From: a virus
IMG/VR virus record: IMGVR_UViG_3300030104_004476
Location: 1 to 64,000 of that record
Length of the DNA: 64,000 nt
Direction: 5' to 3' (one strand)
The translations under genes were made by a program, and so were the position numbers. Position 1 is the stretch's first letter, and each line of letters begins with the position of its first letter. The notes below the pieces were generated by a model that saw only the letters and a program-made list of their open reading frames with translations, was not told the DNA's origin and made no database searches. Positions 3,085 to 59,832 of this stretch are shown here, piece after piece.

Positions 3085-3698
3085 ACGAAAGAAACCTAAA
3101 ATACCTAAATAATAATAGGATTACTTATAGGCGTTTACCTATAACTGATAAACCTACAATAGATACCAAAGAATACATGTTTTACGAAAACGGTACGCAT
3201 GAGTGCTATGAGTTATTCCGTTCGTCAGCAAAAATAACTACATATAAGTCTCTAAAATGGCACTTACTTGTTCTTTGGTATCTTAACCCTCAACTTGATC
3301 CTGATGACTTTAATAAGTTAGCAGAGGTTATATCTCATAAACCAAATGGTTTTGTAAGTTTTGAGTTGTCAGATAGAATATTAGATAAGATTATATATGG
3401 AGTTAGCATGGCTGATTTAGAGCGTCCACCAAAAAATAAATTACGTAAAGTTATATTTAAACCTTTTACTGGATTAACTAAAGAACAAAAATTATCTATC
3501 GTAGGATCATTAATAGGTGTAACAAATAAGATACATTCAGACGACATATATCAATGTATGATAGATACACATGACATAAATAAAAAGATTACAATAAAAC
3601 GGCTCTCTGAGCTTCTTAACGTATCACAACGAACTATACATAGACACATGTGTGAAGATTTAAAAAGAGAAAAAGAATTATTAAACCAACAATTATGA
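3078..3698 (+). CDS. HTH DNA-binding protein, candidate early regulator
   Basis: A 206-aa protein whose C-terminal part (about residues 168-200) forms a clear helix-turn-helix: ITIKRLSELLNVSQRTIHRHM, followed by a charged helix. The N-terminal 160 residues are not recognised and may be a dimerisation or replication-initiator-like domain. It overlaps the sigma-factor gene by 4 nt (ATGA), so the two are probably translationally coupled. A long dyad covers its start codon and recurs in the early/late control region, which suggests autoregulation and control of the switch (inference). Confidence 0.7.
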   Translation: MSYERNLKYLNNNRITYRRLPITDKPTIDTKEYMFYENGTHECYELFRSSAKITTYKSLKWHLLVLWYLNPQLDPDDFNKLAEVISHKPNGFVSFELSDRILDKIIYGVSMADLERPPKNKLRKVIFKPFTGLTKEQKLSIVGSLIGVTNKIHSDDIYQCMIDTHDINKKITIKRLSELLNVSQRTIHRHMCEDLKREKELLNQQL

Positions 3699-6314: not shown

Positions 6315-8027
6315 ATGAACGTACAAGACAGAGAGATCAATGGATTTGCGATTGACCAATTCAATCAGCATGACCTAGAAGTTGGGAAGACGCAGGGGAC
6401 TTGTCCTCTGTGTTCCCACACTAGGAAGCCCGAAAATAAGAAAGCTAAATGTGCTTCTTATGACTGGGAACGTGGTCTAGGCACCTGTCATAATTGTGAT
6501 ACTAGCTTTCAACTTCATACGTACCAACGTAAAGGCGCTAGTGAAAAGATTTACGCTCGACCACAAGTTGAGTTTAATCCTACTAGCACAAAAGTTGAAG
6601 AGTGGTTTGAACAACGCGGCATAACAAAACAAACTCTGACCGACCTACGTGTAGGTGAAGGTCAGGAGTTTATGCCTCAAACAGGTAAGTCAGAGAATAC
6701 CATTCAGTTTAATTACTACATGGGTGATCAATTGATCAACATTAAATACCGTGATGGTCGTAAACATTTTAAGCTTTATAAAGGGGCTGAAAAAGTATTT
6801 TACAATATCAATAGTATTGTTGGTTATGATGCTTGTGTCATAGTTGAAGGTGAGATGGACGTGCTTGCAATGCACGAAGCGGGAATTAAAAACGTAATAT
6901 CAGTACCTAATGGTGCTACGTTAAATTCAAACAACCTCGATTATTTAGATAATTGCATAGACTATTTTGATGACAAAGAAAAGATTATATTAGCAGTTGA
7001 TGCTGATGAAGCTGGACAAGCACTACGACAAGAGTTTATTCGCCGTCTTGGTGCTGAGGTTTGTTATCTAGTCGATTTCGATGATTGTAAAGACGCAAAC
7101 GATTATTTAGTTAAGTATGGAGCTGAAAAGCTTAGATATGTTATTGATAACGTCAGACCTGTACCTCTTGAAGGCGTGTCTACATTAAGAGATATTGAAG
7201 ATGAACTTAAAGACTTTGTTAAAAATGGTTTCAAGCCAGGATTTCAGATTGGCCTTAAAAACTTTGATAAAATATTTAGTACATACACTGGTCAGTTTAT
7301 TACTGTTACTGGTGTGCCTAGTAGTGGTAAGTCTGACTTTGTTGATCAAATGGTTGTGGGCTACAATCAATTATATGGCTGGAAAACTGCATACGCAAGT
7401 CCAGAAAATCAACCAGTATATCTCCACGCACACAAGTTAATGCGTAAGCATTGGCAAGATATGCCTGTAGTAGGAGATATTGGTGGTAATAAATGGGAAC
7501 AAGTTACCGAACACGTTAATGACAACTATTTCTTTATTGATATGGATAAATACAATTTAGAAGCAGTACTACGTAAAGGAGCTGAGCTTGTTAAGCGTAA
7601 AGGTATTAAATGTTTAGTTCTTGATCCATTTAATAAGATTAGAGACGTTAACGCAGCGTCAGACGATGTTAACCGTTATACGATGGATTATTTAGCTAAG
7701 ATTGAAGCTTTTTGTAAAAAGTATGATGTATTAACTTTCATTGTGGCACACCCAACCAAAATGTACAAAGGCCAAGACGGTAAAATGGAAGAGCCAACGA
7801 TGTACAATATCAAAGGTGGTGGTGAATGGTATGACGCTAGTTATCACGGTTTGTTAGTTCACAGAGACTATGAAGCTAAAACAACTAAGGTTAAAGTACT
7901 TAAAGTTAAGTTTCAAAATCTCGGTGAAAACGGCGCTGAGTCACACTTTACTTGGGAACCTCGTTCAGGAAGCTTTATACCCCTAGCCAGTGTTGAAGCT
8001 GAAGCTGAACCAATGCCTTGGGAATAA
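6315..8027 (+). CDS. Bifunctional DNA primase-helicase, T7 gp4-like
   Basis: A 570-aa replisome protein. N-terminal zinc-binding domain: CPLC ... CHNCD at about residues 30-60. TOPRIM primase domain: 'VIVEGEMDVLAMHEAG' near 180 and 'ILAVDADEAG' near 222. RecA/DnaB-type helicase: Walker A GVPSSGKS near 335, Walker B 'CLVLDPFNKI' near 435, and 'TFIVAHPTK' near 475. It should unwind DNA at the fork and lay primers. No DNA polymerase gene was found in the window, so it must work with a host polymerase or one encoded elsewhere. Confidence 0.93.
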   Translation: MNVQDREINGFAIDQFNQHDLEVGKTQGTCPLCSHTRKPENKKAKCASYDWERGLGTCHNCDTSFQLHTYQRKGASEKIYARPQVEFNPTSTKVEEWFEQRGITKQTLTDLRVGEGQEFMPQTGKSENTIQFNYYMGDQLINIKYRDGRKHFKLYKGAEKVFYNINSIVGYDACVIVEGEMDVLAMHEAGIKNVISVPNGATLNSNNLDYLDNCIDYFDDKEKIILAVDADEAGQALRQEFIRRLGAEVCYLVDFDDCKDANDYLVKYGAEKLRYVIDNVRPVPLEGVSTLRDIEDELKDFVKNGFKPGFQIGLKNFDKIFSTYTGQFITVTGVPSSGKSDFVDQMVVGYNQLYGWKTAYASPENQPVYLHAHKLMRKHWQDMPVVGDIGGNKWEQVTEHVNDNYFFIDMDKYNLEAVLRKGAELVKRKGIKCLVLDPFNKIRDVNAASDDVNRYTMDYLAKIEAFCKKYDVLTFIVAHPTKMYKGQDGKMEEPTMYNIKGGGEWYDASYHGLLVHRDYEAKTTKVKVLKVKFQNLGENGAESHFTWEPRSGSFIPLASVEAEAEPMPWE

Positions 8028-18802: not shown

Positions 18803-19128
18803 TAAAACTTGTTCATTATTAGTTCGTCAATATAATCTTGTATTTCTTCTCTAGTAGCAGCCATTTTAAAGCTAAGATCTGCTTGAAAACGTTTTACCTC
18901 TTCACCATCGTCAAATATAATAATGGTAGGTACAATCGCTATCTCGTATTCACTCTGTACTTTAGCATCGTCAATACTCATTGATTTCTTTTTAGCATCA
19001 GATATTTTGCTAAACCACTCAACACCGTTAGCTTTGTTCCAACTAGCGTTAAAATGATAAGCTTCAACCTGAGAAAATGCCGATGTACATAACAACGACA
19101 TTAGTATTAAATTATAGTATTTTTTCAT
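18802..19128 (-). CDS. Exported thioredoxin-fold protein lacking the CxxC
   Basis: A 108-aa protein with a signal peptide (MKKYYNLILMSLLCTSAFSQ). The mature part follows the thioredoxin plan: beta strand 'VEAYHFNASWNKANGVEWF', where the redox CxxC (AEWCGPC in thioredoxin) is replaced by Asn-Lys-Ala-Asn; then 'YEIAIVPTIIIFDDGEEVKRF', with the cis-Pro loop intact; and a C-terminal helix. It should be redox-inactive and may bind another exported protein. Its start overlaps the neighbouring gene's stop, and its own stop overlaps the T9SS-type protein start, so the two are coupled. Confidence 0.65.
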   Translation of the reverse strand: MKKYYNLILMSLLCTSAFSQVEAYHFNASWNKANGVEWFSKISDAKKKSMSIDDAKVQSEYEIAIVPTIIIFDDGEEVKRFQADLSFKMAATREEIQDYIDELIMNKF

Positions 19129-19403
19129 TATTTTAATTGATCAATTTTATCTTCCATTCTAATCATACGCTCTTCTATTTTTTCCACATTTTTTTCTGTG
19201 TTTAATATGGACTGGCGTACATTTTGATCTTTCATATCGAACTCCATGCGAGTAATATCTGGAGCTGGTAACTCCTTAGCTTCTGATATATCAGCCTGCA
19301 ATGTAAACCACATACCAATAAGTGTAGCCATTGCAAAGCCTATACCTATCAATGTTTTAATGCTTATGTTAAAGCCAGTGTCTTCGTTTAATTCTTTTGT
19401 CAT
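19128..19403 (-). CDS. Single-pass membrane coiled-coil protein
   Basis: A 91-aa protein with one transmembrane helix at about residues 17-38 (TLIGIGFAMATLIGMWFTL), a short linker, and a C-terminal coiled coil (VRQSILNTEKNVEKIEERMIRMEDKIDQL). This topology is seen in phage holin-like or spanin-like proteins and in small membrane anchors. It lies in the exported-protein cassette between the outer-membrane protein and the thioredoxin-like protein. A role in lysis or envelope contact is plausible, not proven. Confidence 0.6.
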   Translation of the reverse strand: MTKELNEDTGFNISIKTLIGIGFAMATLIGMWFTLQADISEAKELPAPDITRMEFDMKDQNVRQSILNTEKNVEKIEERMIRMEDKIDQLK

Positions 19404-37300: not shown

Positions 37301-39636
37301 TCAATTTTAGTTATTCTACCATGTTGTACTTGGTTACTAGGAGAAGGAAAAGTCCACTTGTAATCTGAGTTCCACTGTTCACCAAGTAAGAAACCAGGTG
37401 GAATTGGATAAGTTGTGTAAGGATATGTAAATTCAATGTTTGGAGCCCAACCAACATCTATTATATTAGCTGAAAAAATTGTAGTTTTAAAATCATCAGG
37501 ATAAACTGTTGTATCAAAAAATTGTTTAATAGAAGGTGTTATCTCTTGTAAATTACCGTCTAATAAATTATACCCTTCTGTATAGTTGCCAAATAGTAAT
37601 CTAGAAGAAGAAAACTCTTGAGATACAGCTTTTTTAGGTACTCCATCAAAAATCCTTGTTAATTGAGATGATGGTAGTGTTGATCCAAATATTTCAGAAT
37701 CTATAACTATAAAGCCATCATATGTTGTTCCGTTAGCTTGGTAAAACGAAGATCCTCTTTTTATATTTTTAACAATGTAAACATTATCTGAATTACTTTC
37801 TTTAAATAATATTTCAACCTCTTTTACATCTCTTGGTATGTTTGTTGGAACAAAGTCAGATATTTCTACGCTTTTTAACTTGTTAACCATACCGTTGTTA
37901 AAACCAGAGACACTATTATAAGCATATATACCAGGTTGAAATACAGCTCTTGAATATGGTGATATACAAGAGTGTTCATTGTTAGCGTATTTGTATCTAT
38001 ACGCAAAGTATAAAAATCTTTCTGGATATATTGCGTCTTTTTCTCTCAAAGACGCTATCCAAGTTTCATCACCAAATGGAACTATCTGGTTAAAACTTCC
38101 AGTTCCAACTCCATCATCATCAAGCACTTCTTCGTCAACAAAATACGTTGAGGGCACGTCAAGTAGTTCTATTTTAAATACGCTAAAATCATCACTATTA
38201 GCACTTAATATTGTATTAAATGTTTCTATAATTTGGCAAGTTACTACAGCACCACTTTCAGCACCTGTAAGCTCTAACACATCACCTTCACGCCAATTAA
38301 CCCTATGTACGCTAGATTCTATAAAAAAAGAAGTACCTGGCGACATTAATTGATTTAAAACACCTTCACTTTCATCAACAAAAGAAAAAGGAAGTCCCAT
38401 CTCATCACCTACCGCTGCACTTGATCCTTCAAGATCATTTATTTTTAAAACAGGGGAGATTACACTATCAACATAAGTTATATACGATGGTATTTCAGCA
38501 CCAAACATTGCTCCAAAACCTTGAGATATTGGTACTGGTTTACGTTTTGTAAAAATTGGATTTATTACTGGTGGCTCAAGAGGATTAGGTCTTATAACCG
38601 TTATATGTTTTTCTTCTAATAGACCAGCAACTTCAGTTCCGTCTTTTAACGTATATCTAATAAACGAGTGTCTATGTATAGAAGTTGTAGAAGGCAATTG
38701 AGATTGCTTATCTTTAAAGTGTTCAATTACTATTCTCTTTGGTTCTGTTCTACCGTCTGTAAAAAATAAAATATCATCTTCAAAGTTTATACCAGTAATA
38801 GTTGTATGAGAAGGTGTATTACTAGAAGGAGTTCCAGTTACGTTAGATTCTGATTCAGTGCTACCAAGTTTAAAATTTAATATTCTATCACTTGTAAATT
38901 TAAAAACAAAACCTGAGTCTTTTAATTCTTGATTGTAAAAAATATCCCCTGTTGGGATAGTGGTTGTAACTACCACATCAGCATTTGAATCAAGTGTAGA
39001 ACTAACACCGTTTACTCTAATGTCTTGGCCTGCGTATATATCAAAACCATCTGGTCCAACTAATTGAACACGCATTCCTTTTCTAATGCCTTTTGGTACG
39101 TATAAATTAACACTATCATTATTAAACGCTGTTGCAGCTATTGTATCTTTATCTACGTTTGTAATAATGCCATCTTGACTATCTTGTATGTCCGCTTCAC
39201 TACGAACTTCAAAAACATCAACAACTAGTGGATATGTATCTCCAGTTTCTGATACTTGAGAAGGTTTCCACTCTGATATAACATCTGATATTACACCGGT
39301 ATATCTAACACCTGTAGCGTAGCTACCATCTACAGCTAAGTCACTAGCTTTATGTATAAAGTTGAAAATAGTTTTAGAAGCTTCATCTGCATGAGATCCT
39401 ACTGTAATAGCATTATTGCTAATACTAGTACCCATGAAAGTAACTCCGGCTTGACCTGCATGAGCTTGGGTTACTTGAGCGTTACCCTTTATATTTTGAA
39501 CAGTTCCAACCTCTTCGTTTTCAGACGTAGATACTTCAATGTTTAAAGCGTCTCGATACTCACCATTAGGTACCAGACGCTCATCGAAGTCCTTGTTCAT
39601 TCGACCTCGTATAAAATTGTGCTTTAATTCTGGCAT
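34318..39636 (-). CDS. Tail tube/stabilisation-like protein (1772 aa)
   Basis: A large beta-rich virion protein. The N-terminus 'KHNFIRGRMNKDFDERLVPNGEYRDALNIEVS...GTVQNIKGN' matches the beginning of the 'stabilisation'/T7 gp12-like tail proteins seen in crAss-like and other Bacteroidota podoviruses. The rest is composed of beta domains with several aromatic repeats and a propeller-like C-terminal part (for example 'DRDRGAVCRLSRDGITAISNAGMTDW'). It would form the tail hub or nozzle below the portal. Adjacent genes upstream are candidate connectors. Confidence 0.7.
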   Translation of the reverse strand: MPELKHNFIRGRMNKDFDERLVPNGEYRDALNIEVSTSENEEVGTVQNIKGNAQVTQAHAGQAGVTFMGTSISNNAITVGSHADEASKTIFNFIHKASDLAVDGSYATGVRYTGVISDVISEWKPSQVSETGDTYPLVVDVFEVRSEADIQDSQDGIITNVDKDTIAATAFNNDSVNLYVPKGIRKGMRVQLVGPDGFDIYAGQDIRVNGVSSTLDSNADVVVTTTIPTGDIFYNQELKDSGFVFKFTSDRILNFKLGSTESESNVTGTPSSNTPSHTTITGINFEDDILFFTDGRTEPKRIVIEHFKDKQSQLPSTTSIHRHSFIRYTLKDGTEVAGLLEEKHITVIRPNPLEPPVINPIFTKRKPVPISQGFGAMFGAEIPSYITYVDSVISPVLKINDLEGSSAAVGDEMGLPFSFVDESEGVLNQLMSPGTSFFIESSVHRVNWREGDVLELTGAESGAVVTCQIIETFNTILSANSDDFSVFKIELLDVPSTYFVDEEVLDDDGVGTGSFNQIVPFGDETWIASLREKDAIYPERFLYFAYRYKYANNEHSCISPYSRAVFQPGIYAYNSVSGFNNGMVNKLKSVEISDFVPTNIPRDVKEVEILFKESNSDNVYIVKNIKRGSSFYQANGTTYDGFIVIDSEIFGSTLPSSQLTRIFDGVPKKAVSQEFSSSRLLFGNYTEGYNLLDGNLQEITPSIKQFFDTTVYPDDFKTTIFSANIIDVGWAPNIEFTYPYTTYPIPPGFLLGEQWNSDYKWTFPSPSNQVQHGRITKIDSSFASTDDNIDVVHGGSITDKSVPIVNCGINAYIEGPSGDPGSNYDNTQGHFIDNDINQPKGPFYTAPHAGSYTFKGTIEVGYNDIMYSESTVSSGTLGDYSYTSELFNIALCIAKCDTNGVPNLTANDFEQAGNDVTGGSDILSPTYRPRYQVKNQLNSNVILARGTLTRPKALNYGGRAFSHTTTSIADENDPQLLTLSDTGGASFVGGVTLNLPETTVQLAAGEIICFCIPYPYSYVSTQDSFDPVNNIQQSGGVDITDDLFNGSCPSDANFGFQSRNASLQITSAPSTEIEVVAQQAYESVKSSRTYQTGIVYLDDYGRESTVLIDESQIQGLPKDKCDRVNRVRLSIKNNAPYWAKYYKVFIKEIAKEYYNIPLYKAYPVDQDNESLSQFVWLAFSSNERNKVKLEDALVLKKEHGTNNAVTDANASWRILDIVDTPRKTQDDPETEDIDETAFSLGALTIPATAEEIDGKFFVKIMADTEVAQYLEETGDADQGLNSTEKVGNGAVFEVETPRRIDLDLFYEISQAYPIYLNEKDAKMYIKKGNKLNLKGPGQEIADLTLNGFPNISNAAQEDWQNYKPSVLNVFGAESKDGYCKISLSEPLPSYITASNNNPLKVYFYTGDGIFTTRSSYVSAYVTSTHVAGTSTLEIYPFTHPVTYSPLSLADLDIRLPWFNCYAFGNGVESDRIRDDFNAGVLYPYSSVGKQSGFKASLADADYAEVTKQNDIIFSQIYNEESNVSRYNEFLLAEDITKKLNSEYGSIQKLYTRQGDVIAFCESKVIKILANKDALFNADGNQQLLSSTAVLGQAIPFVGDYGISKNPESFAVEEYRIYFTDRDRGAVCRLSRDGITAISNAGMTDWFNDNLINGQALIGSYDGKKNEYNITIHSVVSSGNTKNVYTLSFSEDSKGWTSFKSFTPESGESLSNSYYTFKSGKMWLHHPNSLSEDRCNFYGTQNTSTLTALFNEASGSVKLFKTVNYEGTQSKEL

Positions 39637-53743: not shown

Positions 53744-54001
53744 CTATTCTACTAAAACTACATCGCGGCCTCTTATTACTTGGTACATTGTATCTTTCCA
53801 CGTAATTCCATGTCCAGCGTGTTTATCATAGTGTACTACATCTCCATCTTTTAATCCTTGTACTAAATTACCTGTAGAAATGATAGTAGCCTTTATATAC
53901 CTATTATCTTCGTCTAGGTTTTCTGTTAAGATTAAACCACCAATTTTCTTTGGTCCTATCTTTTCTTTTTCTACTACTATATAATCGTTAACTGCCTTCA
54001 T
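53744..54001 (-). CDS. groES: Co-chaperonin GroES
   Basis: An 85-aa co-chaperonin lid protein, slightly shorter than bacterial GroES (~97 aa). It has an N-terminal strand 'DYIVVEKEKIG', the mobile loop with 'GGLILTEN' (consensus GGIVL), a roof region, and a C-terminal 'GITWKDTMYQVIRGRDVVLVE', matching the conserved 'Y.i....DilaVv' end. It is encoded after groEL on the minus strand, overlapping it by 14 nt, which is opposite to the usual groES-groEL order. It should cap the phage GroEL or a host one. Confidence 0.85.
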   Translation of the reverse strand: MKAVNDYIVVEKEKIGPKKIGGLILTENLDEDNRYIKATIISTGNLVQGLKDGDVVHYDKHAGHGITWKDTMYQVIRGRDVVLVE

Positions 54002-55553
54002 TTATTCTAATGTTTGAAATTACACAATCTGCAGAGATAATAGTTGAAACAACACTAACTGCATTTTTCAGGGCTGATTTAGTAACAAGTACAGGATCTA
54101 CGATGCCTGATTGTATCATATCTACAAACTCTCCAGTGATAACATTCATTCCTTCACCTTCTTTCATATCTAAATTACACATTAATCCTGCATTGTCTAA
54201 TATAGTGTTGTATGGAGCTTTTATAGCTTCAAGAAGTAATTCTTCACCGACGGAGTCGGAGGAAATTTTTTGAGAAGCATTAAGTAATACTACACCACCG
54301 CCAGGAACAATACCTTCTTTTAATGCAGCTTTGGTAGCGTAAATAGCATCTTCTACTCTATCTCTTTTCTCTTTCAACTCTACCTTAGAGTCAGCACCTA
54401 CGTTGATTATACCCACAGAGCCTGATAACATAGCTAATCTCTGCTCAAGTTTCTTTTTCATGAAACCGTTTTTTTCATCAGCAATTTTTTTAGCAACTTC
54501 ATCAATCCTTTCTCCTATCTTCTCATTTATTTCGTCAAGAGTTATCACTGTACTCTTGTCATCTGTAGTAGCAAACTCAGCTTCTCCTAAATAGTCAACA
54601 CTAATAAGATCTAAATCATCACCTAGCTCTTCATTTATAACGGTAGCGCCAGTTAATATAGCTAAGTCCTCAGTAGCATCTTTCTTAGTAGGACCGAAAC
54701 CTGGTAAATCAATAATATTAACTTTAATATTACCTTTAACTTTGTTCATCAGTAAAGCAGATTTAACTTGTTGCGCGACAGGTGCTACAATAAGTAAAGC
54801 TCTACCTTGTTTAATAACATATTCTAATATTGATTGTATTTTACGGATGTTAGGGATTTCAGAAGATACTATAAGAATTAAAGGATTTTCTAGCTCACAT
54901 TTATGTTTCTCTGTGTTTGTAACGAAATGTGGAGAAGTTAATCCACAATCTACTTGAACACCATCTACTAGTTCAACATAAGTTTCTTCAGTTTCTGATG
55001 TTTCCATCAATACTACACCATCTTTACCTACTTTAGTATAGGCTTCTGCAATAATTTGTCCCAAAGTTTCATCATTATTACATGAAATCGATGAGACACT
55101 TTGAAGCATATCTCCTTCTACGCTAACAGCTACTTTGTCTAAGTATTCATTAATTTTTTTAAGCCCAGAATTTATACCTGATTTTATTTCTCTGATAGAT
55201 TCTCCACTATATTTGGGATCATTAACTGTTTTTAACAAAGATTCAGCTAGCACAGTCGCTGTAGTAGTTCCATCACCTGCTTCTTTTACTGTATTTTGAG
55301 CAGCTTCTTTAATAAGTGTTGCTCCTAAGTTTTCAACAGGATCAAATAACACAACAGATTGTGCTACTGTAACTCCATCTTTTGTAATTACTGGATTTCC
55401 ACGTGCGTCTTCGTAGATTACGCATTTCCCCGAGGCTCCGAGGGTTGATTTTACTGCTTTTGCTAGTTTTTCTACACCAGCAATTACTTTTTGTTTTGCA
55501 GAATCGCCAAAGTTTAGATCTTTGACAATTTCGCTTGGTAAATTGTATTCCAT
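53988..55553 (-). CDS. groEL: Chaperonin GroEL (60 kDa)
   Basis: A 521-aa chaperonin. Equatorial-domain ATPase motifs are intact: 'STLGASGKCV' (STLGPKGR in E. coli), 'TKDGVTVA', 'EAGDGTTTATVLAESLL' with the hydrolytic Asp, 'VEDAIYATKAALKEGIVPGGGVVLL' (equivalent of D398 and the G-loop), so ATP cycling is likely preserved. The apical domain is present. The Gly-Gly-Met tail of bacterial GroEL is missing. Probably folds capsid or other phage proteins. It forms a translationally coupled pair with groES. Confidence 0.92.
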   Translation of the reverse strand: MEYNLPSEIVKDLNFGDSAKQKVIAGVEKLAKAVKSTLGASGKCVIYEDARGNPVITKDGVTVAQSVVLFDPVENLGATLIKEAAQNTVKEAGDGTTTATVLAESLLKTVNDPKYSGESIREIKSGINSGLKKINEYLDKVAVSVEGDMLQSVSSISCNNDETLGQIIAEAYTKVGKDGVVLMETSETEETYVELVDGVQVDCGLTSPHFVTNTEKHKCELENPLILIVSSEIPNIRKIQSILEYVIKQGRALLIVAPVAQQVKSALLMNKVKGNIKVNIIDLPGFGPTKKDATEDLAILTGATVINEELGDDLDLISVDYLGEAEFATTDDKSTVITLDEINEKIGERIDEVAKKIADEKNGFMKKKLEQRLAMLSGSVGIINVGADSKVELKEKRDRVEDAIYATKAALKEGIVPGGGVVLLNASQKISSDSVGEELLLEAIKAPYNTILDNAGLMCNLDMKEGEGMNVITGEFVDMIQSGIVDPVLVTKSALKNAVSVVSTIISADCVISNIRINEGS

Positions 55554-59028: not shown

Positions 59029-59050
59029 TACGAAACGTTTTGGATAATAT
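59029..59050 (+). promoter_or_regulatory. Early promoter-like motif 1
   Basis: TACGA (59029-59033), eight bases, GGATAATAT (59042-59050), preceded by ACAAACTAAC. Leader of about 30 bases to the start of the gene at 59080. Confidence 0.7.
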
Positions 59051-59079
59051 CTATGTAAATAATCTAATAAATAAACATT

Positions 59080-59292
59080 ATGCAATTAACTAAAAAAAGA
59101 TTTGTAATTAGCAAATCACTAATCGGAAAAAATGTAGTAATTACTTTCACTACTAAAAAAGGTACATTCACTTATAATCATGACGATGTGTATTCTATTA
59201 ATCAAGAAAAACTAGAGTCGATGGAGTGCTTCCAGAAATATGGTAACTATACTAATAGTAATAACTTACCTACTTGGGCTCGACTTTCATAA
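59080..59292 (+). CDS. First rightward gene, 70-aa phage protein
   Basis: A 70-aa basic protein: 'KKRFVISKSLIGKNVVITFTTKKGTFTYNHDDVYSINQEKLESMECFQKYGNYTNSNNLPTWARLS'. The W/'YGNYTNSNNLPTWARL' tail recalls a family of small early phage proteins. Function is unknown. It follows an early promoter motif, and a hammerhead ribozyme begins at the base after its stop codon, so its mRNA 3' end is likely created by ribozyme cleavage. Confidence 0.7.
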   Translation: MQLTKKRFVISKSLIGKNVVITFTTKKGTFTYNHDDVYSINQEKLESMECFQKYGNYTNSNNLPTWARLS

Positions 59293-59342
59293 GTAATACT
59301 GATGAGACTTCAATAGTCGAAACTACCTCGGTAGTCTATTAC
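59293..59342 (+). ncRNA. Type I hammerhead ribozyme
   Basis: All conserved core elements are present in order. Stem I 5' strand GTAATA (59293-59298); CTGATGA (59299-59305); stem II GACT/AGTC with loop TCAAT; GAAA (59319-59322); stem III ACTAC/GTAGT with a CTCG loop; cleavage triplet GTC ending at 59336; stem I 3' strand TATTAC (59337-59342), a perfect complement. Predicted self-cleavage is after C59336. The ends lie in stem I, hence type I. It immediately follows the stop codon at 59292 and precedes a long dyad. Confidence 0.85.
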
Positions 59343-59348
59343 AAAACA

Positions 59349-59396
59349 GTGACAAGAGCCTATTACTATCTCTTTACTTAGTAGCCTTATGTCACA
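59349..59396. promoter_or_regulatory. Long dyad behind the hammerhead ribozyme
   Basis: Left arm TGACA (59350-59354) plus AGCC, right arm TGTCA (59390-59394), 45 bp end to end, with further A-T and G-C pairs between. It belongs to the same three-member family as 3041-3084 and 58821-58866. As RNA it would form an imperfect hairpin just after the ribozyme. Confidence 0.6.
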
Positions 59397-59415: not shown

Positions 59416-59520
59416 ATGTTTGCACTAGAATTATTAACTCAACTTATTATTTTCACTACTATTTTTTATTTAATAGAAAAATATGTTATAAAGAAAGACA
59501 AGTCGCGCAGTAACTCCTAA
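59416..59520 (+). CDS. 34-aa membrane peptide
   Basis: A short frame (MFALELLTQLIIFTTIFYLIEKYVIKKDKS...) with one transmembrane helix and a basic C-terminus. It lies between the dyad and the next early promoter motif. Such membrane micro-proteins are frequent among phage early genes; the role is unknown. Confidence 0.5.
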   Translation: MFALELLTQLIIFTTIFYLIEKYVIKKDKSRSNS

Positions 59521-59569: not shown

Positions 59570-59592
59570 TACGACTTAAACTGGATAATATA
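59570..59592 (+). promoter_or_regulatory. Early promoter-like motif 2
   Basis: TACGA, eight bases, GGATAATATA, with ACAAACTAAA flank; 13 bases before the start at 59605. Confidence 0.7.
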
Positions 59593-59604
59593 ATAAACTT
59601 AAAT

Positions 59605-59832
59605 ATGAATAAATTAACTAAAAATCAACTTAACATTATTACCTTAAATAATAAAACTTACATACCTTTCAAACTACATCAATTACCTTCATACTTCAAT
59701 GAAATACCGATGTCTGAAACGTTCAACTTAAAAGGTTATACTTATGTTAACTTGACTGAATTAAAATCATTCAACAAAGATATTACTACACTTAATAGTA
59801 AACTCGATGGTCAATACTCATCATCAAAATAA
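59605..59832 (+). CDS. Unrecognised 75-aa early protein
   Basis: A 75-aa protein (MNKLTKNQLNIITLNNKTYIPF), Asn/Leu-rich, mixed alpha/beta, with 'KGYTYVNLTELKSF' in the middle. No domain recognised. It is monocistronic between two early promoter-like motifs. Confidence 0.6.
   Translation: MNKLTKNQLNIITLNNKTYIPFKLHQLPSYFNEIPMSETFNLKGYTYVNLTELKSFNKDITTLNSKLDGQYSSSK

Follow-up and report, generated by a model that had tools for sequence, protein, structure and literature searches.

In the first 64,000 nucleotides of a 66,408-base viral record (IMG/VR IMGVR_UViG_3300030104_004476; this stretch is referred to as the window), we found a complete type I hammerhead ribozyme (HH) at positions 59293–59342 of the + strand, immediately behind the stop codon of a gene for 70 amino acids. 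We consider it likely that this is a working hammerhead that serves to separate this gene from the one that follows.

Anatomy of the hammerhead and its surroundings

On re-reading of the letters, all invariant elements of the hammerhead core (C-U-G-A-N-G-A, G-A-A, A15.1-U16.1, and H17) were found to be present in the window HH, together with three helices in type I order that are backed by covariation across relatives and by a strain-level change in stem II. Given that TAA at 59290–59292 ends the 70-aa open reading frame (ORF), stem I begins on the next base and the predicted cut lies 44 nt past the stop. The features of the region are as follows.

59041–59052, + strand: promoter-like motif TGGATAATATCT, found by pattern search upstream of the first early ORF; putative function
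59080–59292, + strand: 70-aa ORF that opens the early gene cluster on this strand (stop codon TAA, 59290–59292)
59292, + strand: A, final base of the stop codon and conserved flanking A of stem I
59293–59298, + strand: stem I, 5' strand, GTAATA (read from the sequence)
59299–59305, + strand: catalytic core C3 to A9, CTGATGA (read from the sequence)
59306–59318, + strand: stem II, GACT/AGTC, closed by the pentaloop TCAAT (consensus of the class, U-N-A-N-U)
59319–59321, + strand: core G12 A13 A14 (GAA)
59322–59335, + strand: stem III hairpin, ACTAC-CTCG-GTAGT (A15.1 to U16.1)
59336, + strand: C17; cleavage predicted between 59336 and 59337, a position given by the hammerhead fold
59337–59342, + strand: stem I, 3' strand, TATTAC; predicted 5' terminus of the downstream RNA after the cut
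59349–59395, + strand: conserved hairpin GTGACA...TGTCAC between the predicted cut and the next ORF (alignment and fold)
59416–59520, + strand: 34-aa ORF MFALELLTQLIIFTTIFYLIEKYVIKKDKSRSNS, first gene past the predicted cut, starting 79 nt after it
59605–59832, + strand: following early ORF (75 aa), with a promoter-like motif of its own (59582–59593)

A first-pass annotation had described a complete type I hammerhead right behind a stop codon, with its core elements and three perfect stems. The letters are as it described them, and the identification was confirmed by the sequence, by a held-out covariance model, and by conservation at the site (see below). As regards its view that the pattern would hardly arise by chance, the bare scan was not decisive: 40 copies of the window generated by a first-order Markov model yielded four looser type I candidates in total, one of them with at least 15 pairs. 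Loose type I candidates arise by chance about once per ten windows, and the case therefore rests on comparison.

A covariance model trained on 52 sequences (R1) detected no second hammerhead anywhere in the 66,408-base record, and a script detected none of types II or III in the window. Prophage HH clusters have at least two HHs that flank genes within a single phage region, an arrangement that is present in other phage lineages and not in the window. The site also differs from retrozymes and eukaryotic type I repeats, in which HHs lie in tandem non-coding mobile repeats, in that a single HH is situated between two ORFs.

The 52-nt HH is its own RNAfold minimum, at −10.7 kcal/mol. With at least 12 nt of upstream coding sequence added, RNAfold, which leaves aside tertiary contacts and co-transcriptional folding, prefers a TCGACT/AGTCGA pairing and gives stem I a probability of about 0. 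The competing strand TCGACT was considered as a conserved switch and rejected, being absent from some relatives.

The motif TGGATAATATCT recurs at 59582 and 59856, and, with up to one mismatch allowed, the promoter-like motif has 10 matches in the window as against 3.2 expected. A promoter-like motif TGGATAATATAA is repeated before early ORFs (59041, 59582, 59856, 60506, and others), and a sigma-like factor is encoded by the same phage at 3695–4447. No PHROG family was found for the 70-aa ORF. The hairpin at 59349–59395, the interior of which is conserved (GTTACTA, ACTTAA, and CCTAATG), gave no match in Rfam and is possibly a new structured element. The 34-aa ORF probably encodes a single-span membrane protein, with the span judged by eye, and ORFs that resemble it come after the same element in many relatives. 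This ORF is below the usual ORF cut-offs and was not listed in the first-pass annotation, which likewise missed the hairpin.

The proposal that the ribozyme would cut the early mRNA and so split the first gene from those downstream is supported with regard to placement. Because the ORF at 59605 has its own promoter-like motif, the cut would mainly separate two genes and not the whole early region. Covariation, conservation at the site, and the placement of relatives with respect to stop and start codons all favor a presumptive cut between genes.

Scores with Rfam and with lineage-specific models

A scan of the whole window at the Rfam gathering scores yielded no match, and the window HH is below the curated gathering score for each of RF00163, RF00008, and RF03152. 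The top-scoring Rfam model was RAGATH-1-hammerhead (RF03152), with 24.5 bits (gathering score, 56.3; E = 0.3) at 59263–59341. The covariance-model search suggested in the first-pass annotation thus gave nothing at the gathering score and a sub-threshold hammerhead match. Among 16 HH-bearing loci, no HH reached the Rfam gathering score. We also prepared a model from 46 HHs of other phages, with the neighbourhood of the window left out (R2), and this model scored the window HH at 68.1 bits (E = 1.3e-15, a rough value obtained with a short calibration).

A compact subclass in viral contigs

A pattern in which the core and stem II (GACT/AGTC) were fixed and stems I and III were left free had at least 119 matches in viral contigs, whereas a similar pattern had a single match in the genomes of 84,980 species of bacteria and archaea. 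This lone bacterial match is in a contig of a Verrucomicrobia metagenome-assembled genome that carries four HHs in a row and is probably viral. The compact subclass is thus common in viral contigs and nearly absent from bacterial genomes.

The 91 unique matches had been picked on the core and stem II alone; 87 of them had a stem III, and 94% of these 87 also had a 5-bp stem I, compared with 6.6% (maximum, 16%) after shuffling of the partners. Stem I is represented by 45 different sequences. The comparison with shuffled partners suggests that the HH structure is under selection, with the loci having been selected by one stem II sequence and related phages not being independent. A pairing figure of 99.7% for HHs picked by our scanner is not independent, because the scanner demands pairing, and the fair covariation test is that with the 91 matches chosen without stem I.

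The subclass has a recognizable signature: the variable pairs of stem I are preceded by A-G and succeeded by C-A, an A-U pair lies beside the core, and loop II reads U-N-A-N-U. The flanking A residues are conserved in 139 and 126 of 146 HHs, respectively, and, together with the U-N-A-N-U loop, hint at a tertiary contact between stem I and loop II. The bases upstream of the HH show no conservation beyond position −7.

Placement at gene ends and arrays in other phages

A stop codon of an ORF was located between −60 and +30 nt of the first HH base for 150 of 158 HHs with flanking sequence, with a median offset of 0, compared with 199 of 790 random controls and 37 of 158 antisense controls; this set was cleared of near-identical HHs only, so that related phages contribute repeatedly. 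The 150 stops comprised 74 upstream of the HH (mostly a few nucleotides away), 50 in stem I, and 26 in the core or stem II, and some HHs sit tens of nucleotides beyond the stop. The next ORF began a median of 27 nt after the predicted cut. The HHs mark gene ends with near-base precision and on the coding strand.

Other lineages carry arrays of two to nine HHs. All HHs were on a single strand in each of the 69 multi-HH loci among the matches listed, with a median spacing of 539 nt, and neighbouring HHs were separated by different ORFs and not by repeats. Where an array has a type III HH (types found by script), this HH leads in 18 of 20 cases, the 20 arrays falling by eye into about 11 related groups and thus not being 20 independent cases; most type III HHs lie about 10 to 26 nt before the start codon. 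The operon of L089 is punctuated by nine HHs, and that of L015 is also punctuated. In L108, a type II HH, four type I HHs, and then Pistol ribozymes occur at successive gene ends. The three Pistol ribozymes that extend this array (L108 5688–6813) are above the Rfam score; two are directly behind gene ends and the third (6749–6813) is within a called ORF.

The same site in relatives of the window phage

The record encodes a terminase, portal protein, primase/helicase, sigma factor, ribonucleotide reductase, and GroEL. The closest annotated terminases are those of an uncultured podovirus (65%) and of Flavobacterium elemo phages (46%), and megablast with 14 kb against phages gave no match. A phage-encoded GroES and GroEL pair, which elemo phages have as well, is located at 53744–55553 of the window.

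Relatives of the 70-aa ORF were found at 72 loci in viral contigs, 71 of which were classified. An HH lies directly at the stop codon in 15 of the 71; the sequence of stem III is altered in some of these relatives with pairing retained, and the stop codon drifts by a few nucleotides yet stays within 3 nt of stem I. The GTGACA...TGTCAC hairpin is downstream of the 70-aa gene in 34 loci, with an HH preceding it in seven, a TGTATAGCA element follows the ORF in 11 of the 71, an intrinsic terminator occupies the same site in two, and the remaining loci have none of these elements. A few of the element-less loci show tRNA-like letters by eye, with ARAGORN calling no tRNA there. At L127, L142, L152, L171, and others, the TGTATAGCA element is repeated beside a GC-rich hairpin in place of the HH. 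When the phage group of the window was sampled by GroEL, an HH was present in five of 80 loci. At the boundary of the 70-aa gene, the HH is thus interchangeable with several other 3'-end elements. It is rare and single in this phage group and therefore dispensable, and its substitution at the same site by terminators or hairpins suggests that what counts is the formation of a defined 3' end on the mRNA.

Hammerheads were also found in cultured phages. In the elemo phage elemoA_7-9A, whose host is Flavobacterium sp. BAL314, a type I HH lies between gp69 and gp67 (NC_055852 17290–17347, minus strand, with the predicted cut about 6 nt before its 3' end) and a type III HH before gp62 (19084–19138). 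All 68 elemo records retain the two regions. Stem II of the type I HH is GACT/AGTC in elemoA_7-9A and GGTT/AACC in three other elemo alleles, so that two base pairs are altered on both sides among near-identical phages; one elemo allele differs also at the free core position N7. A CDS annotated on the opposite strand, gp68 of NC_055852 (L194 17275–17382), overlies the elemo type I HH and is probably spurious. Type I HHs occur in addition in Pelagibacter phage Jormungand (near 38,219–38,279) and in Methylophilales phage MEP301, in which the annotated gp02 ends inside the HH, in stem II.

Proposed role and alternative explanations

The motif with its covariation and placement was observed, as were its conservation and its replacement at the site; the reading of the window HH as a gene separator adds cutting and end chemistry by analogy with the hammerhead family. 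A promoter upstream of 59080 would give rise to an RNA containing the 70-aa gene, the ribozyme, the hairpin, and the 34-aa gene. The ribozyme would fold after transcription and cut after C59336. Given that a type I cut leaves the body of the ribozyme on the upstream mRNA, this molecule would end 44 nt past its stop codon with a terminal hairpin, that of stem III, and a C bearing a 2',3'-cyclic phosphate, whereas the downstream mRNA would begin with a 5'-OH, 79 nt ahead of its ATG. The gain might be early mRNAs that are separately stable and separately translated, with ends on which the decay machinery of the host acts poorly; such a stability benefit, which we put forward more cautiously than cutting and end chemistry, is the most likely one. 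Gene separation has against it the rarity of the HH in the phage group of the window and the alternative pairing preferred by RNAfold. A ribosome halted at the abutting stop codon would also mask stem I, and a 5'-OH end may speed decay, as for glmS mRNA and RNase J in Bacillus.

The same masking underlies the main rival, a translation-gated switch, in which a ribosome at an abutting or overlapping stop codon would mask stem I and the core and block the cut, so that linkage of the genes would depend on how strongly the first is translated. In 76 of 150 cases the upstream ORF terminates within stem I or the core, with most others terminating a few nucleotides away, the annotated end of MEP301 gp02 is inside stem II, and the stop at the window site shifts without leaving the immediate vicinity of stem I, all of which would suit a switch. 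Tightly packed phage genes would give equal spacing without one, however, the HHs tens of nucleotides beyond the stop do not conform, and the upstream competing strand is missing from some relatives; we regard a switch as unlikely. Repression of the downstream gene, through a cut that yields a 5'-OH RNA that decays, would follow the example of glmS in Bacillus, a self-cleaving ribozyme whose 5'-OH RNA is degraded. Although such an outcome thus has a precedent in bacteria and the ribozymes do lie upstream of the start of the next gene, repression seems very unlikely, in that all genes except the first would be destroyed in the arrays of L089, L015, and L108, the median of 27 nt from the cut to the next ATG corresponds to a normal leader, and type III HHs are found in the leader of the first gene in many arrays.

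A functionless relic of a decayed or mobile ribozyme would be compatible with the patchy presence of the HH in the phage group of the window, but the core and stems are perfect, compensatory changes occur between strains, position and strand are fixed, and neighbouring HHs flank different ORFs and not repeats, which leaves this explanation a slim chance. Least probable of all is the formation of circular mRNAs, in which excised single-gene RNAs would be re-ligated, successive HHs of an array sharing stem I so that the ends of a unit pair. The ends of adjacent units indeed pair at no fewer than five of six positions in 69% of cases, versus 24% between phages. Once search bias is removed, however, stem II is as similar within arrays as is stem I, so that duplication explains the shared stem I; in addition, no RtcB or RNA_ligase match was found in 14 phage records including that of the window, and the window holds a single HH.

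Beyond gene separation at the window site, the ribozymes might together constitute a general punctuation system of early operons in several unrelated phage lineages, a joint reading that we advance tentatively, at somewhat less than even chances. In such a system, a type III HH would trim the leader of the first gene, and a type I HH, type II HH, or Pistol ribozyme behind nearly every stop codon would split the entire early transcript into mRNAs of one gene each, bearing 5'-OH and 2',3'-cyclic phosphate termini. Maintained by selection would be the act of cutting and not any single ribozyme class, and stops inside the ribozyme would couple cutting with translation.

The role of prokaryotic and phage hammerheads has been named an open question in the field (PMC6155905). 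It becomes directly testable with the cultured Flavobacterium elemo phages, Jormungand, and MEP301 and with natural compensatory alleles. The placement of HHs has now been measured, at gene ends, on the coding strand, and with ribozyme types that can replace one another; all HHs in the loci tested escaped detection at the Rfam scores.

Relation to known self-cleaving RNAs

The window HH shares with Hammerhead_1 (RF00163, clan CL00010) the core, the arrangement of the stems with the open end at stem I, and the predicted cut after H17. The subclass described here differs in its 6-bp stem I capped by G-C with flanking A residues and in its 4-bp stem II with a U-N-A-N-U pentaloop, and it scores below the Rfam threshold. 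RAGATH-1 (RF03152) has in common with the window HH the GACU start of stem II and the GAAAC...GUC stretch, whereas the conserved 5' hairpin and A-rich linker of that model have no counterpart in the window and the alignment is weak, with one pair.

Clustered HHs of types I to III that flank single genes in prophage-like DNA of Agrobacterium were described by Perreault et al. in 2011 (PMC3088659), who showed cutting in vitro and in E. coli and had already proposed processing into single-gene mRNAs. In contrast to those clusters, our cases are mostly free phage genomes of several host groups, with HHs that abut stop codons and type III followed by type I; one lineage mixes in Pistol ribozymes, and there is a single HH in the window. 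Ribozymes are also known to be associated with one another and with genes of Mu-like phages (PMC10085705). Pistol (RF02679), which is found at gene ends in the HH array of L108, has the same end chemistry but a different fold and is absent from the window.

The theta (HDV-like) ribozymes of gut phages are thought to process RNA 3' ends, namely those of tRNAs (PMC10879173); they are also self-cleaving RNAs of phages but differ in fold and substrate from the HHs described here. The only tRNA-linked HH seen here belongs to a viral cluster with about 20 tRNAs (L029 and L036), and in L029 (2595–2672) this type I HH occupies exactly the space that separates tRNA-Asp from tRNA-Gly.
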